DNA from: Acidovorax sp. 1608163
GTDB taxonomy: Bacteria > Pseudomonadota > Gammaproteobacteria > Burkholderiales > Burkholderiaceae_C
Assembly: GCF_003669015.1 (NCBI RefSeq)
Contig: NZ_CP033069.1
Coordinates: forward strand, 4,722,501-4,786,500
Direction: 5' to 3'
DNA: 64,000 nt
Shown: in pieces, positions 7,048-50,243 of the stretch
Layout: each line of letters opens with the position of its first letter
How positions within the stretch are numbered: the first letter of the stretch is position 1
Translations under genes and position numbers: made by a program
The notes under the pieces: model-generated
Databases searched by the model: none
The model's input: the letters and a program-made list of their open reading frames with translations, nothing else
What the model was told of the DNA's origin: nothing

Positions 7048-7644
7048 ATGCCCCACGCTGCGCCACCCACACCGCTGCCCCGCCATCGCCCCAACCCCCA
7101 CCGTGGCGTGGCGCCCGCGCTGCTCGCCGCCGTGCTGGGCTACCTGCTGCTCAGCGCCTGGGTCTACGCCCCCGCGTGGGAGCGCGCCTTCCGCTCGGAC
7201 GCATCGCCCGTGGCCTGGCTGTCGAGCGCGCTGCTGCTCACGCTCAGCATCACCGCCCTGCGGCTGGTGGGCGAACGCGCCCTGCCCCGCCTGCTGGGCG
7301 CGTGGCTGGCGGTGGCGTTTTTGGCGCTGGCGCTGGACGAGCAGTTCATGCTGCACGAGCTGTGGAAGTTCCGCTGCCACGAATGGACCGCCGCCTGCCA
7401 GTACAGCACCGTGCGCGATGCCCCCATGCTGGCCGTGGCCGCCATCGGCCTGCTCACCTTGGCCTGGCTGCACCGCGCCTTGGGCCACCGCAGCACGCGC
7501 GCCCTGCTGTGGGCGGGCCTGGCCGTGGGCTGGCTAGCGATTGGCGTGGACCAGTGGCCTGAAGTACAAACGCACTGGCACTGGCTGCCCGAGCTGCCGC
7601 CGCTGCTGGCCACCCTCGAAGAGGCGTTGGAAGTGCTGGCCTAG
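7048..7644 (+). CDS. Multi-pass membrane protein of unknown function
   Basis: The predicted 198-residue protein starts at the ATG of MPHAAPPTPLP; a TTG six codons upstream is an alternative. About five hydrophobic segments are visible, beginning GVAPALLAAVLGYLLLSAWV. A charged loop (DEQFMLHELWKFRCHEW) separates two of them. The frame ends at TAG, but reading through adds ALVLAALLRQPGTQG before a TGA at 7690-7692, which looks like the missing half of the final helix (LEEALEVLA). The stop may therefore be a nonsense mutation or a base-calling error. No family is recognised. Confidence 0.7.
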   Translation: MPHAAPPTPLPRHRPNPHRGVAPALLAAVLGYLLLSAWVYAPAWERAFRSDASPVAWLSSALLLTLSITALRLVGERALPRLLGAWLAVAFLALALDEQFMLHELWKFRCHEWTAACQYSTVRDAPMLAVAAIGLLTLAWLHRALGHRSTRALLWAGLAVGWLAIGVDQWPEVQTHWHWLPELPPLLATLEEALEVLA

Positions 7645-22888: not shown

Positions 22889-23647
22889 TTACCGACCAAG
22901 GGTTTTCTCGGCCCCCCGGACCTCGAAGCGCGGGATTCTGGCTCCCACCGGCGCCTCGATGTCGGCACCCGCAGCCAGGGGCACGCCAGGCCCTTTTCGG
23001 CAGACCTGCACGGCCCAGTGGCGCACACCGGCATCGGCCAGGGTATCGCCCAGCGTCTGCAGCTCTTGTGGGCTGAAGAGGCCCTCGTGCCAGGTGGTGC
23101 GGCATTCAAAAGCCACCGCATGGGCCTGCAGCAGCGCCAGCGACTGCCAGGCACGCGCGCCGCTGCCGGGCACGCCGGTGATGGCCTCGTAATGGTGCTC
23201 GGGTCCTTTGATGTCGAGCCCCACCCAATCAAGCAGGGGCAGCACGGCGGCCAGGCGTTCGGGGTACATGCCGCCGGTGTGCAGGGCCGTGGCAAAGCCC
23301 ATCGCGCGCACCTCGGCCAGGGCGGCGGGCAGGCCCGCTTGCAGCGTGGGCTCGCCGCCTGAAAACACCACCCCATCGATCAACCCCCGGCGCTTGCCCA
23401 AAAAGGCCAACACCTCGGGCCATGGGGTGGCTGCGGGCACCGTGGCGTCCAGCAGCTCAGGGTTATGGCAATAGCCGCAGCGCCAGGGGCAGCCCTGGCA
23501 ATACACCACCGCCGCCAGACGGCCTGGAAAGTCGATGGTGGTGAGCGGCGTGAGGCCGCCCACGCGCAGCCCGCCTGGCCAGGCCAGTGGGGCTGCGCCT
23601 GCCGCATCAGCCACAGCAGCGCGACTCGTTGAAGAACTGGCGCTCAT
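22889..23647 (-). CDS. nrdG: Anaerobic ribonucleotide reductase activating enzyme NrdG (radical SAM)
   Basis: NrdG uses a [4Fe-4S] cluster and S-adenosylmethionine to install the glycyl radical on class III ribonucleotide reductase. The 252-residue protein carries the CxxxCxxC motif as CPWRCGYC at residues 53-60, with an extra cysteine at 50, and FSGGEPTLQAGL downstream. The first 28 residues are Ala/Ser-rich and may be dispensable. Its ATG lies inside the 3' end of the small glycyl-radical gene (41-base overlap, different frame), implying coupled translation with that partner. Confidence 0.9.
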   Translation of the reverse strand: MSASSSTSRAAVADAAGAAPLAWPGGLRVGGLTPLTTIDFPGRLAAVVYCQGCPWRCGYCHNPELLDATVPAATPWPEVLAFLGKRRGLIDGVVFSGGEPTLQAGLPAALAEVRAMGFATALHTGGMYPERLAAVLPLLDWVGLDIKGPEHHYEAITGVPGSGARAWQSLALLQAHAVAFECRTTWHEGLFSPQELQTLGDTLADAGVRHWAVQVCRKGPGVPLAAGADIEAPVGARIPRFEVRGAEKTLGR

Positions 23648-23801
23648 GGTGTTCGCCCTGCTTGCCCACGTTGAAGCTGGCCACCGGGCGGTGGTAGCCC
23701 ATCACGCGGGTCCACACCTCGCAAGGCTGGCGCTCGGCATCGGTCAGTTGCACGGCAGCGCTGGCCACGGCAGTGTGTTCGGTGGATGAGAAATGGGTCA
23801 T
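23607..23801 (-). CDS. Detached glycyl-radical domain of class III ribonucleotide reductase
   Basis: The 64-residue product contains CEVWTRVMGYHRPVASFNVG followed by KQGEHHERQFF, which is the C-terminal glycyl-radical loop of NrdD; Gly35 in RVMGY is the expected radical site. In most NrdD proteins this segment is fused to the catalytic barrel, but here the barrel (24002-26020) stops just before it. CGGAGA about ten bases upstream supports the ATG of MTHFSSTEHT. The end NESRCCG has two cysteines. It overlaps nrdG. By analogy with GrcA/YfiD, a small protein that replaces the radical domain of pyruvate formate-lyase, it should dock on the barrel as a separate subunit. That docking is inference. 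Confidence 0.85.
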   Translation of the reverse strand: MTHFSSTEHTAVASAAVQLTDAERQPCEVWTRVMGYHRPVASFNVGKQGEHHERQFFNESRCCG

Positions 23802-23833
23802 GGGATGGATCTCCGAAAAAGGGGAGGAAGGAC

Positions 23834-23865
23834 AAAAAGGGGCCACCGTTGTGGCCTGTGGCCCC
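23834..23865 (-). terminator. Hairpin with T-tract between the two nrdD pieces
   Basis: On the minus strand GGGGCCAC pairs with GTGGCCCC across an 11-base loop and is followed by TTTTT. It lies after the large nrdD gene and 33 bases before the start of the small glycyl-radical gene, so it may be a terminator or an attenuator limiting read-through to the small gene and nrdG. Confidence 0.6.
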
Positions 23866-23921
23866 GGGGGTATCGGCCCAGGGCCGATAGGGTGCTGCAG
23901 CTATCGCCATTGCACTTCAAT

Positions 23922-23979
23922 TTGCTATGCATTTAATAGCTGCTCGCGCTTTTATATTGGGCGCTGGAGGCACTTTTTA
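23922..23979. repeat. Dispersed TAGCTGCTAGCGCTT repeat, copy 3
   Basis: The element reads TTTGCTATGCATTTAATAGC, TGCTCGCGCTTTTATATTGG, then GCGCTGGAGGCACTTTTT. It begins 22 bp beyond the stop of the large nrdD gene, inside the gap that separates it from the glycyl-radical gene. Confidence 0.85.
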
Positions 23980-24001
23980 TTCAAAACTGCCCCACACCGT
24001 T

Positions 24002-26020
24002 TCAGGCAGCCAGGGCCGCACGCTTGGCGGCCAGCCGCTCTTCATCGCAGCGCGGGCAAAACGGGTGTTCGCCCGCCAGGTAGCCGTGCGTGGGGCAGAT
24101 GGAGAACGTGGGCGTGATGGTGATGTAGGGCAGGCGAAAGTTCGTCAGCGCCCGTTTCACCAGCTCGCGGCAGGCCGCACCGCTGGAGACGCGCTCGCCC
24201 ATGTACAGGTGCAGCACGGTGCCGCCGGTGTATTTGGACTGCAGCGCCTCTTGCCGCATCAGGGCCTCGAACGGATCGTCCGTGAAGCCCACGGGCAGCT
24301 GCGAGGAGTTGGTGTAGTACGGCTGCTCGGCCGTGCCCGCCTGCAAGATGGCAGGCCAGCGCTTTTTGTCTTCTTTGGCAAAGCGGTAGGTCGTGCCTTC
24401 GGCGGGCGTGGCCTCCAGGTTGTAGAGGTGGCCGGTTTCTTCCTGGAACTGCGTCATGCGCTCGCGCACGTGGTCGAGCAGGCGCAGGGCCAGGCGATGG
24501 CCCCCTTCGCTGGTGATGTCTTCGCGGCCGTGTGTGAAGTTGCGCACCATCTCGTTGATGCCGTTCACGCCCAGCGTGGAAAAGTGGTTGCGCAAGGTGC
24601 CCAGGTAGCGCTTGGTGTAGGGAAACAGGCCCTGGTCCATCAGGCGCTGGATGAGCTTGCGCTTGGTCTCCAGGCTTTGTTTGCCCAGCTCCATCAGGCG
24701 GTCGAGCGCGGCGAGCAGGCCCGCTTCATCGCCCGCGTGCTGATAGCCCAGGCGTGCGCAATTGATGGTGACCACCCCCAGGCTGCCGGTCTGCTCGGCG
24801 CTGCCGAACAGGCCGTTGCCGCGCTTCAAGAGCTCGCGCAAATCGAGTTGCAGGCGGCAGCACATGGAGCGCACCATGTTGGGTTCCAGCTCGGAGTTGA
24901 TGAAGTTCTGGAAGTACGGCAGGCCGTACTTGGCCGTCATGTCGAACAGCAGCTGCGCGTTCTCGCTCTCCCAGGGGAAGTCCTTGGTGATGTTGTAGGT
25001 GGGGATGGGGAAGGTGAACACCCGACCCTTGGCATCGCCCGTGGTCATCACGTCGATGTAGGCGCGGTTGATGAGGTCCATCTCCACCTGCAAGTCACCG
25101 TACGCGAAGGGCATCTCTTTGCCAGCGATCACGGGCACCTGCTCGCGCAGGTCCTCGGGGCAGGTCCAGTCGAAGGTGAGGTTGGTGAACGGCGTCTGCG
25201 TGCCCCAGCGCGAGGGCACGTTGAGGTTGTAGACCAGCTCCTGGATGCACTGGCGCACGGCGGCGTAGTCCATGGCATCGATGCGCACAAACGGTGCCAT
25301 GTAGGTGTCGAAGGACGAGAACGCCTGCGCGCCGGCCCACTCGTTTTGCAGCGTGCCCAGGAAGTTCACGATCTGTCCCACCGCCGAGCTCATGTGCTTA
25401 GGCGGCCCTGCCTCCACCTTGCCCGGCACGCCGTTGAGCCCCTCGTGCAGCAGCGTGCGCAGCGACCAGCCCGCGCAGTAGCCGCTGAGCATGTCGAGGT
25501 CATGGATGTGGATATCGCCATTGCGGTGCGCCTCGCCGATCTCGGGCGTGTAGACGTGCGACAGCCAGTAGTTGGCCGTGACCTTCCCTGCCACGTTCAG
25601 GATCAGCCCGCCCAGCGAGTAGCCCTGGTTGGCGTTGGCGTTCACGCGCCAGTCGGCCCGCGTGAGGTATTCGTTGATGGAGCTTTCCACATCGACCAGC
25701 GTCTGCTTATCCGCGCGCAGCGTGGCGTGCTGCTCGCGGTAGACGATGTAGGCGCGCGCCGTGGCCAGGTGGTTGGCGGCGATGAGCGTCTGCTCGGCCA
25801 CGTCCTGGATCTGCTCCACCGTGGGGGCTTCGCCGTGAAAGCGGTGGATCAACACCTTGGTGACTTGCGCGGTGAGCAACGCGGCTTCTTCGGCGCCATA
25901 TTCACCCGAGGCCTGGCCCGCACTGGCCAGCGCAGCGCGGATGCGCTCCGCATCAAAAGGAGCGCGCTGGCCGCTGCGCAAAACAACTTCGCGGGGCAAA
26001 GTGACGAGGGTGGACGCCAT
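24002..26020 (-). CDS. nrdD: Class III anaerobic ribonucleoside-triphosphate reductase, catalytic subunit lacking its radical loop
   Basis: The 672-residue protein reduces ribonucleotides to deoxyribonucleotides without oxygen. An ATP-cone allosteric domain fills residues 1-95 (VVLRSGQRAPFDAERIRAAL). The barrel follows, with GYCAGWSLRTLLHEGLNGVP, SSAVGQIVNFLGTLQNEWAG and SMCCRLQLDLRELLKRGNGL. A zinc knuckle closes it: C642 and H645 in SICPTHGYLAGEH, then C655 and C658 in FCPRC. The protein ends fourteen residues later, without the RVxGY glycyl-radical segment, which is encoded separately at 23607-23801. Two NrdR-like boxes lie 30-77 bp upstream. The arrangement suggests a two-part enzyme. Confidence 0.92.
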   Translation of the reverse strand: MASTLVTLPREVVLRSGQRAPFDAERIRAALASAGQASGEYGAEEAALLTAQVTKVLIHRFHGEAPTVEQIQDVAEQTLIAANHLATARAYIVYREQHATLRADKQTLVDVESSINEYLTRADWRVNANANQGYSLGGLILNVAGKVTANYWLSHVYTPEIGEAHRNGDIHIHDLDMLSGYCAGWSLRTLLHEGLNGVPGKVEAGPPKHMSSAVGQIVNFLGTLQNEWAGAQAFSSFDTYMAPFVRIDAMDYAAVRQCIQELVYNLNVPSRWGTQTPFTNLTFDWTCPEDLREQVPVIAGKEMPFAYGDLQVEMDLINRAYIDVMTTGDAKGRVFTFPIPTYNITKDFPWESENAQLLFDMTAKYGLPYFQNFINSELEPNMVRSMCCRLQLDLRELLKRGNGLFGSAEQTGSLGVVTINCARLGYQHAGDEAGLLAALDRLMELGKQSLETKRKLIQRLMDQGLFPYTKRYLGTLRNHFSTLGVNGINEMVRNFTHGREDITSEGGHRLALRLLDHVRERMTQFQEETGHLYNLEATPAEGTTYRFAKEDKKRWPAILQAGTAEQPYYTNSSQLPVGFTDDPFEALMRQEALQSKYTGGTVLHLYMGERVSSGAACRELVKRALTNFRLPYITITPTFSICPTHGYLAGEHPFCPRCDEERLAAKRAALAA

Positions 26021-26049: not shown

Positions 26050-26097
26050 ACACTACCTATAGCGTCAACGATACCCACGAAACACTATAGGTAGTTT
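26050..26097. promoter_or_regulatory. Pair of NrdR-box-like sites upstream of nrdD
   Basis: ACACTACCTATAGCGT (26050-26065) and ACACTATAGGTAGTTT (26082-26097) both resemble the NrdR consensus ACACWATATATWGTGT. Their starts are 32 bp apart, about three helical turns, as is usual for paired NrdR sites. The cores CTACCTATAG and CTATAGGTAG are exact inverted copies. NrdR represses ribonucleotide reductase operons when dATP is abundant. Confidence 0.75.
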
Positions 26098-26163
26098 GAT
26101 GAAGCGCAACGGGCGATGACGCAACCACGCAATCCGCAGCCCAGCGTGACGCGCCTCAAGACA

Positions 26164-42084: not shown

Positions 42085-42139
42085 GCTACGAATTTAATAG
42101 CTGCTAGCGCTTATTCCATAAGCGCTAGCAGCTATTTTT
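42085..42139. repeat. Dispersed TAGCTGCTAGCGCTT repeat, copy 6
   Basis: GCTACGAATTTAATAGCTGC, TAGCGCTTATTCCATAAGCG and CTAGCAGCTATTTTT. It is a near-perfect palindrome between two convergent gene ends, with T-runs suited to termination. Confidence 0.92.
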
Positions 42140-50177: not shown

Positions 50178-50243
50178 TTGCATAAAAAATAGCTGCTAGC
50201 GCTTACCAAATAAGCGCTAGCAGCTATTTTATTGATAGCAAAT
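50178..50243. repeat. Dispersed TAGCTGCTAGCGCTT repeat, copy 7
   Basis: TGCATAAAAAATAGCTGCTA, GCGCTTACCAAATAAGCGCT and AGCAGCTATTTTATTGATAG, then CAAA. It is the most symmetric copy and abuts the pssA stop codon between two convergent genes. Confidence 0.93.

Follow-up and report, generated by a model that had tools for sequence, protein, structure and literature searches.

A class III ribonucleotide reductase divided between a catalytic chain and a probably exchangeable glycyl-radical peptide that phages may also supply

Introduction

Class III ribonucleotide reductase (RNR) is listed as one catalytic chain, NrdD, plus an activase (review PMC3267527; here and below, papers given by PMC number are cited for the portions of their text available to us). 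The DNA considered here, a stretch of 64,000 nucleotides of Acidovorax sp. 1608163 (contig NZ_CP033069.1, positions 4,722,501 to 4,786,500; hereafter the window), carries an nrdD gene whose product has no glycyl-radical loop, followed by a short gene, here called grd, which encodes such a loop beside the activase gene nrdG. The locus therefore raises the question of whether nrdD is broken or the enzyme has two chains and, in the latter case, whether the detached radical chain can be exchanged. The original prediction, made from the letters of the window, took both pieces to be intact, argued against simple decay, and likened the small one to the replaceable radical domain GrcA/YfiD. From the sequences and distribution of these genes, we give a probability of about 0.88 to a class III RNR made of two chains and an activase, whose glycyl-radical subunit would be exchangeable and of which phages would carry their own copy.

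The glycyl-radical loop lies on a chain of its own

The catalytic chain, encoded by nrdD (24002..26020, minus strand; ATG start, 672 aa), comprises an ATP-cone, the barrel, and a zinc knuckle, and matches the profiles NF006126 (1127 bits), PF13597 (583 bits), and, for the ATP-cone, PF03477 (70 bits). Its C terminus (...SICPTHGYLAGEHPFCPRCDEERLAAKRAALAA*) carries C642, H645, C655, and C658, a putative zinc knuckle that is invariant across 16 aligned NrdDs, the window's copy among them, and after which the chain stops, as had been predicted. The radical loop is not within this chain and sits on the 64-aa product of grd (23607..23801, minus strand; ATG start, preceded by a GGAG site), where RVMGY surrounds Gly35 (...RQPCEVWTRVMG(35)YHRPVASFNVGKQGEHHERQFF...). 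The family PF13597, which has 562 positions, covers NrdD over 2-530 and the grd peptide over 530-562 (E 1.7e-7; the peptide matches PF13597 alone at E 0.01), so that both chains together make up one NrdD. The two genes are 200 bp apart and in different frames. Next to grd, nrdG (22889..23647, minus strand; 252 aa counted from the first ATG) encodes a NrdG2-type radical S-adenosylmethionine activase (TIGR02495 NrdG2, 193 bits). The overlap between grd and nrdG that had been noted amounts to 41 bp, provided that nrdG starts at its first ATG (23647); in many relatives the nrdG match starts only near residue 25, and the true overlap could therefore be smaller.

Across the whole genome, a single contig of 5.05 Mb, PF13597 has exactly two matches, nrdD and grd. 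The peptide is thus the sole visible copy, and a second full-length nrdD elsewhere, which the original prediction had named as a finding that would speak against it, is not there. No match to PF01228, the pyruvate formate-lyase (PFL)/GrcA type, was found anywhere in this genome, and PF02867 (class I/II RNR large chain) is absent from the hits of nrdD, grd, and nrdG, the genome's two matches lying elsewhere. With regard to subclass, NrdD carries an MCCR motif at 386-389, of which M386, C387, C388, and R389 are invariant in the aligned NrdDs, and an NGLFG stretch whose Phe may correspond to the finger-loop tip. The group NrdDh4 is defined by MCCR in place of SCCR together with a Phe at the finger-loop tip (PMC4493059); its MCCR motif is thus common to the window's NrdD. 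Like the window's enzyme, the fused NrdD of group NrdDh/NrdDh4 from Thermotoga maritima is a class III enzyme with a zinc domain and an NrdG partner, but its loop lies in the same chain, and the word "split" is absent from the main text of that paper (PMC4493059).

The split is conserved, and the peptide is under purifying selection

NrdD loci were collected by scans at the level of genus, family, order, and class, and those described here are the best-scoring ones rather than a random sample. In the genus, NrdD was found in 24 of 47 genomes, and in 24/24 of these the radical piece is a separate match; the loci that were read have the same break, NrdD ending soon after CDEER and being followed by a separate peptide with ERQPCEVWTRVMGYHRP. 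The peptide gene starts with ATG in 22 of 23 members and is preceded by an AGGA/GGAG-type site in 21. Over the peptide core of these 23 members (253 pairs, one row, L017, having its stop codon inside the core), mean synonymous divergence (pS) is 0.350 and mean nonsynonymous divergence (pN) 0.082, a ratio of 0.236. The family scan gave 45 positive genomes out of 299, 42 of them with two separate matches; the exceptions are a fused form of another subclass (G171), a remnant (G049), and an nrdD whose middle is missing (G270). At the level of the order, 126 of 399 genomes were positive, many with the same two-piece pattern among the matches listed. Among 369 genomes of the class, 38 were positive; the radical piece stands apart in 28 of these (nrdD itself being fragmented in 3 of the 28), everything is in one piece in 7, and the matches are partial in 3. 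Pooling the NrdD loci from the scans, and leaving out L002 and L025-L031 as repeats of a locus or fragments, gave 91 split and 19 fused among 110. The split and its conservation are established; among the loci examined, this NrdD group usually takes the split form.

These data bear on two simpler accounts of the locus. According to the first, an ordinary nrdD was broken recently by a frameshift or insertion, or by an error of sequencing, and its pieces are decaying. A dispersed palindromic repeat does lie in the spacer between nrdD and grd, and some relatives have a broken nrdD, but the identical break point and the peptide's own start in 24/24 positive genus members, the split pairs in many Pseudomonadota, and the purifying selection on the peptide leave this account with next to no credibility and bear out the earlier argument against decay. 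According to the second, the frames are joined into one NrdD chain by recoding, stop read-through, or trans-splicing. In six loci, just one stop separates in-frame pieces, which would suit such joining; in others, the frames overlap. Against it, the peptide gene has its own start and usually a Shine-Dalgarno-like site, the frames differ in the window, and unlinked and phage copies of the peptide exist, all of which makes a joined chain very improbable.

Several apparent fusions did not withstand inspection. Frames of 343-376 aa that seemed to join the peptide to NrdG in G002, G011, G026, and G040 begin out of frame inside the nrdD region, and the peptide ends there at its own stop, so that it is not fused to NrdG. 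The single 771-aa frame reported for NrdD and peptide in G023 and G031 has stops between the pieces. Six family genomes (G056, G079, G165, G186, G204, and G252) gave the same initial call, and the five that were read, all but G079, have separate frames.

One locus with the genes in frame and one TAG apart (L070) was modeled as one chain with AlphaFold2, the stop being read as Q and 36 aligned sequences being used. The model has a mean predicted local distance difference test score (pLDDT) of 83.6 and a predicted template modeling score (pTM) of 0.78. The pLDDT is 53 in the linker block 681-690 and 74, 91, 80, 88, and 85 in the radical-domain blocks across 691-740, where the radical glycine, residue 713, lies between strands 706-711 and 714-717. 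A flexible tether bearing a folded radical loop would fit this prediction.

Split and fused forms in one tree

Trees and approximately unbiased (AU) tests were run under LG+G4 without a mixture, on rows chosen by the authors (48 and 51), and two fused sister-group NrdDs served as outgroup in the 48-row tree; before the 48-row test, ten rows that were odd or had long branches had been dropped, seven of them fused and three split. In that tree, the split rows are basal and the fused rows nested, with 5 changes, of which at least 3 are forced by strong branches. A clade of all split rows that excludes the fused ones was rejected (p-AU 0.00125), and the same kind of test on 51 class-level rows gave a p-AU of 0.046. 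The simplest reading of these alignments would be one old fission followed by repeated re-fusion, and a stretch, RQPCE, that resembles the start region of split peptides and is kept in some fused forms is what re-fusion would leave. With the ten dropped rows included (58 rows), the tree has 6 changes, 3 of them forced, and places four fused Rickettsiales near the base, beside split rows from candidate phyla; this weighs against a single old fission, and several fissions are possible. That fused and split forms interconvert supports the view that the two chains act as one.

Split enzymes in named organisms and on plasmids

A scan of one-per-species genomes with an exact-codon pattern for WTRVMGYHRP gave at least 118 stretches. 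Among the matches listed (n=118), 90 are split, 17 fused (9 Actinomycetes, 7 Alphaproteobacteria, and 1 other), 9 have no NrdD in the stretch, and 2 lie at a contig edge. The split ones listed include Pseudomonas brassicacearum, P. frederiksbergensis, Stutzerimonas, Hydrogenophaga, Duganella, Thiobacillus, Allochromatium, and Devosia, as well as metagenome-assembled genomes (MAGs) of Omnitrophota, Elusimicrobiota, Chloroflexota, and candidate phyla. A peptide that appeared unlinked in G494 is most likely due to a contig break, NrdD being near the end of one contig and the peptide near the start of another.

The motif also matched 28 plasmid records, ten of which were inspected. Those of Cupriavidus necator H16, Bradyrhizobium, Shinella, Azospira, and Sulfuricurvum have two annotated genes, the small one encoding 58-66 residues and bearing the name "nrdD: anaerobic ribonucleoside-triphosphate reductase"; the Actinomyces and Acidiphilium records are fused, and in those of C. 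metallidurans and Paracoccus the region is unannotated and the DNA shows a separate peptide frame. On pALVIN01 of Allochromatium vinosum, an orphan peptide gene annotated nrdD (L214 3516-3725) stands beside a gene for a CHAP-domain protein; genes for an ATP-binding protein and a hydrolase are nearby.

The nrdDG region of C. necator H16 plasmid pHG1 is split into a large chain of 676 aa and 76.2 kDa and a peptide of 66 aa, the latter encoded by H16_RS32675. The abstract of the 1999 work of Siedow et al. reportedly gives NrdD as 76.2 kDa, and that work is said to have discussed glycine 650 of NrdD as the radical site. In the H16 large chain (L211 1819-3849), Gly650 falls within the zinc knuckle; if Gly650 was indeed so discussed, the radical site was misplaced there. 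The C. necator nrdDG genes have been reported, with reference to a 1999 study, as essential for complete denitrification (PMC2864759). Because these genes are split, the split enzyme appears to be functional in a cell. The same paper gives NrdDG of C. metallidurans as Rmet_5137 and Rmet_5139 (PMC2864759), and the skipped locus tag between them would fit the peptide gene.

Extra radical peptides in host genomes

Sixteen genomes, picked for a peptide without a nearby NrdD, for extra matches, or for a fusion, were searched whole; no frequency is implied by this choice. Seven of them combine one NrdD with more than one peptide gene, namely G1098 and G1100 (4 each), G593 (3), and G1101, G1102, G993, and Magnetospirillum fulvum G1096 (2 each). 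Extra peptides accompany a second, fused NrdD in G693 and in the Sutterella genome G1095, and in G1094 a second peptide lies near a contig start. Four extra peptides adjoin tyrosine integrases, two in G1098 (L369, L370) and two in G1100 (L372, L373, integrase homologues). The loci L369, L372, and L373 have 5 to 9 proteins in common with the viral contigs L144 and L199, and their genes therefore look like those of prophages. As to other surroundings, the second peptide gene of M. fulvum immediately precedes class I nrdA and nrdB (L376 5610-9223), and that of G993 is separated by about 2 kb from a gene that matches RNR large-chain families (L380 5803-11073).

Stand-alone peptides in viral contigs

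The WTRVMGYHRP pattern matches 92 IMG/VR contigs, which form 52 clusters at 90% of a 31-aa core. The encoded peptides have a median length of 59 residues from the nearest upstream Met (range 35-190), and neither NrdD nor NrdG was detected in the examined stretches of 92/92 contigs. When 50 of the 92 records were searched whole, each had one PF13597 match, starting at profile position 521 or beyond and above the cut-off in 49. As a control, a pattern for the barrel of NrdD that finds 157 of 186 near-full NrdD loci (58 of 77 among the named-scan loci) matched 0 viral contigs. Among 118 of 169 candidate neighbor proteins, from 47 of the 92 contigs, the recurring families with a known function are portal (5), terminase large subunit (5 and 4), tail completion (4), minor head (3), integrase (3), and endolysin (2), and in L209 the gene order is terminase small subunit, terminase large subunit, peptide (7051-7281), portal. 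One phage peptide matches positions 119-156 of phrog_4132 ("unknown function"). Among cultured phages, INPHARED yielded no convincing case of a stand-alone peptide.

Being small and unaccompanied by NrdD and NrdG, the phage peptides might be decoys that block host NrdD instead of supplying radicals. Among viral contigs that match the motif at all its other positions, 92 encode Gly at the radical position and 0 another residue, which speaks against a decoy. Phages also need deoxynucleoside triphosphates (dNTPs), and we regard the decoy role as improbable.

A weightier alternative is an obligate two-chain enzyme in which no meaningful exchange takes place, the split being neutral or serving only the separate expression of the radical chain. 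The window and 24/24 positive genus members have one peptide gene, beside nrdG, and split class I and II RNRs have been described without a repair role (PMC3267527). The extra host peptides and the stand-alone phage peptides are, on the other hand, hard to explain without exchange, and we consider this alternative unlikely, albeit the foremost of those weighed here.

Separately, 15 of the 92 viral peptides have at least three cysteines upstream of the loop. By eye, a module of the form PCaHl...C..gR..P.dC..CaaY is seen in L119, L126, L128, L141, L150, L156, L157, L160, L161, L179, L185, and L201, and in these twelve peptides it may be a private zinc knuckle.

Upstream region and spacer of the window's locus

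Two NrdR-box-like sites, 32 bp apart and each with 3 mismatches to an NrdR-box consensus, lie upstream of nrdD (26050-26065 and 26082-26097); the search gave 4 strand-wise matches (2 sites) versus 0.10 expected. One FNR-like match with 2 mismatches is close to them (26096-26109). FNR-like boxes with up to 2 mismatches number 19 window-wide versus 6.75 expected, none of them in the nrdD-grd spacer (23802..24001, minus strand). No sigma-70-like site was found that would give grd a separate promoter, and a terminator-like hairpin in the spacer (23856-23841) is not above chance. The repeat in the spacer, AGCTGCNNGCGC, occurs 12 times in the window versus 1.6 expected, twice as close inverted pairs, and resembles a dispersed repetitive extragenic palindrome; its positions include about 23936-23971 (the spacer), 42099-42133, and 50191-50225.

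Discussion

Our analyses suggest that this NrdD acts together with a radical chain of its own. Gly35 of the small chain would receive its radical from NrdG, and that chain would dock on NrdD at the site of the fused domain in ordinary NrdD; in every turnover, the loop would hand the radical on to a cysteine of NrdD. With the radical site placed on a separate small chain, oxygen damage would cost one small protein, and that protein would be replaceable and exchangeable. Phages of such hosts would use their own peptide with host NrdD and NrdG to sustain anaerobic dNTP synthesis. The NrdD-peptide pair is very likely a working enzyme, and the distribution of the genes strongly suggests that the peptide is exchangeable and supplied by phages. 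We lean, with distinctly less assurance, toward a fuller picture in which the radical subunit would be a mobile, exchangeable cofactor protein; hosts would keep one or several, and the stand-alone copies of diverse phages would seat in host NrdD, be charged by host NrdG, and keep anaerobic dNTP synthesis going, or free it from dATP and oxygen control, during infection.

Several observations pull the other way. As many as 23 of 47 genus genomes have no NrdD match, which implies that the enzyme is dispensable. Broken nrdD genes occur in two family genomes (G270, mentioned above, and G106, which has an in-frame TAG and is among the 42), and the large chain of the split nrdD in the Sutterella genome G1095 is broken as well. 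The window's genome has a single peptide gene. Errors of binning may affect several of the multi-peptide and cross-phylum cases, which are MAGs; L372 and L373, two of the four copies in G1100, are near-identical stretches of one contig; and most neighbor families of the viral peptides are without known function.

The closest parallel is with the spare parts of PFL, YfiD/GrcA and T4 Y06I (PMC8683613), which are likewise small stand-alone glycyl-radical proteins, have a bacterial and a phage version, and are charged by the activase of the enzyme that they serve. The genomes with several peptides and the viral stand-alone peptides strengthen the likeness drawn in the original prediction, although it stays an analogy: YfiD/GrcA belongs to PF01228, is a spare, and partners PFL, whereas grd belongs to PF13597, is a normal subunit in split hosts, and partners an RNR. 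GrcA/YfiD repairs a full-length glycyl-radical enzyme that has its own loop, and the PF13597 and PF01228 searches found no such enzyme in the source genome. A divided catalytic chain is also known from NrdJa/NrdJb of Pseudomonas (split class II) and NrdA of phage Aeh1 (split class I), but these belong to other classes and have other break points, and no class III split is named in the available text of the papers (PMC3267527, PMC9669993). Single phages also have nrdD in pieces, some with introns or inteins (PMC3653736); these cases are isolated and several are tied to mobile elements, whereas the bacterial break is conserved at the radical-domain boundary. Neither a class III NrdD divided at the radical domain nor phage radical peptides for RNR came up in our search of the openly licensed literature, which did not extend to RNR databases and subscription papers, and prior notice elsewhere is thus possible.

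If the fuller picture of a mobile radical subunit is true, this would be, as far as the openly licensed literature shows, the first known case of a spare-part or takeover radical subunit in an RNR. According to the authors of PMC8683613, spare parts have been validated only for PFL, and whether glycyl-radical enzymes beyond PFL have them, a question stated in that paper, would become open to test. Many Pseudomonadota, among them Pseudomonas species and C. necator, have the two-chain form, and this alters how such enzymes are to be cloned and assayed, since expressing the large nrdD and nrdG alone would miss the radical site on the small chain. From the point of view of infection, these data suggest that phages may take over the anaerobic dNTP supply of their hosts by means of a protein of about 50-60 residues.

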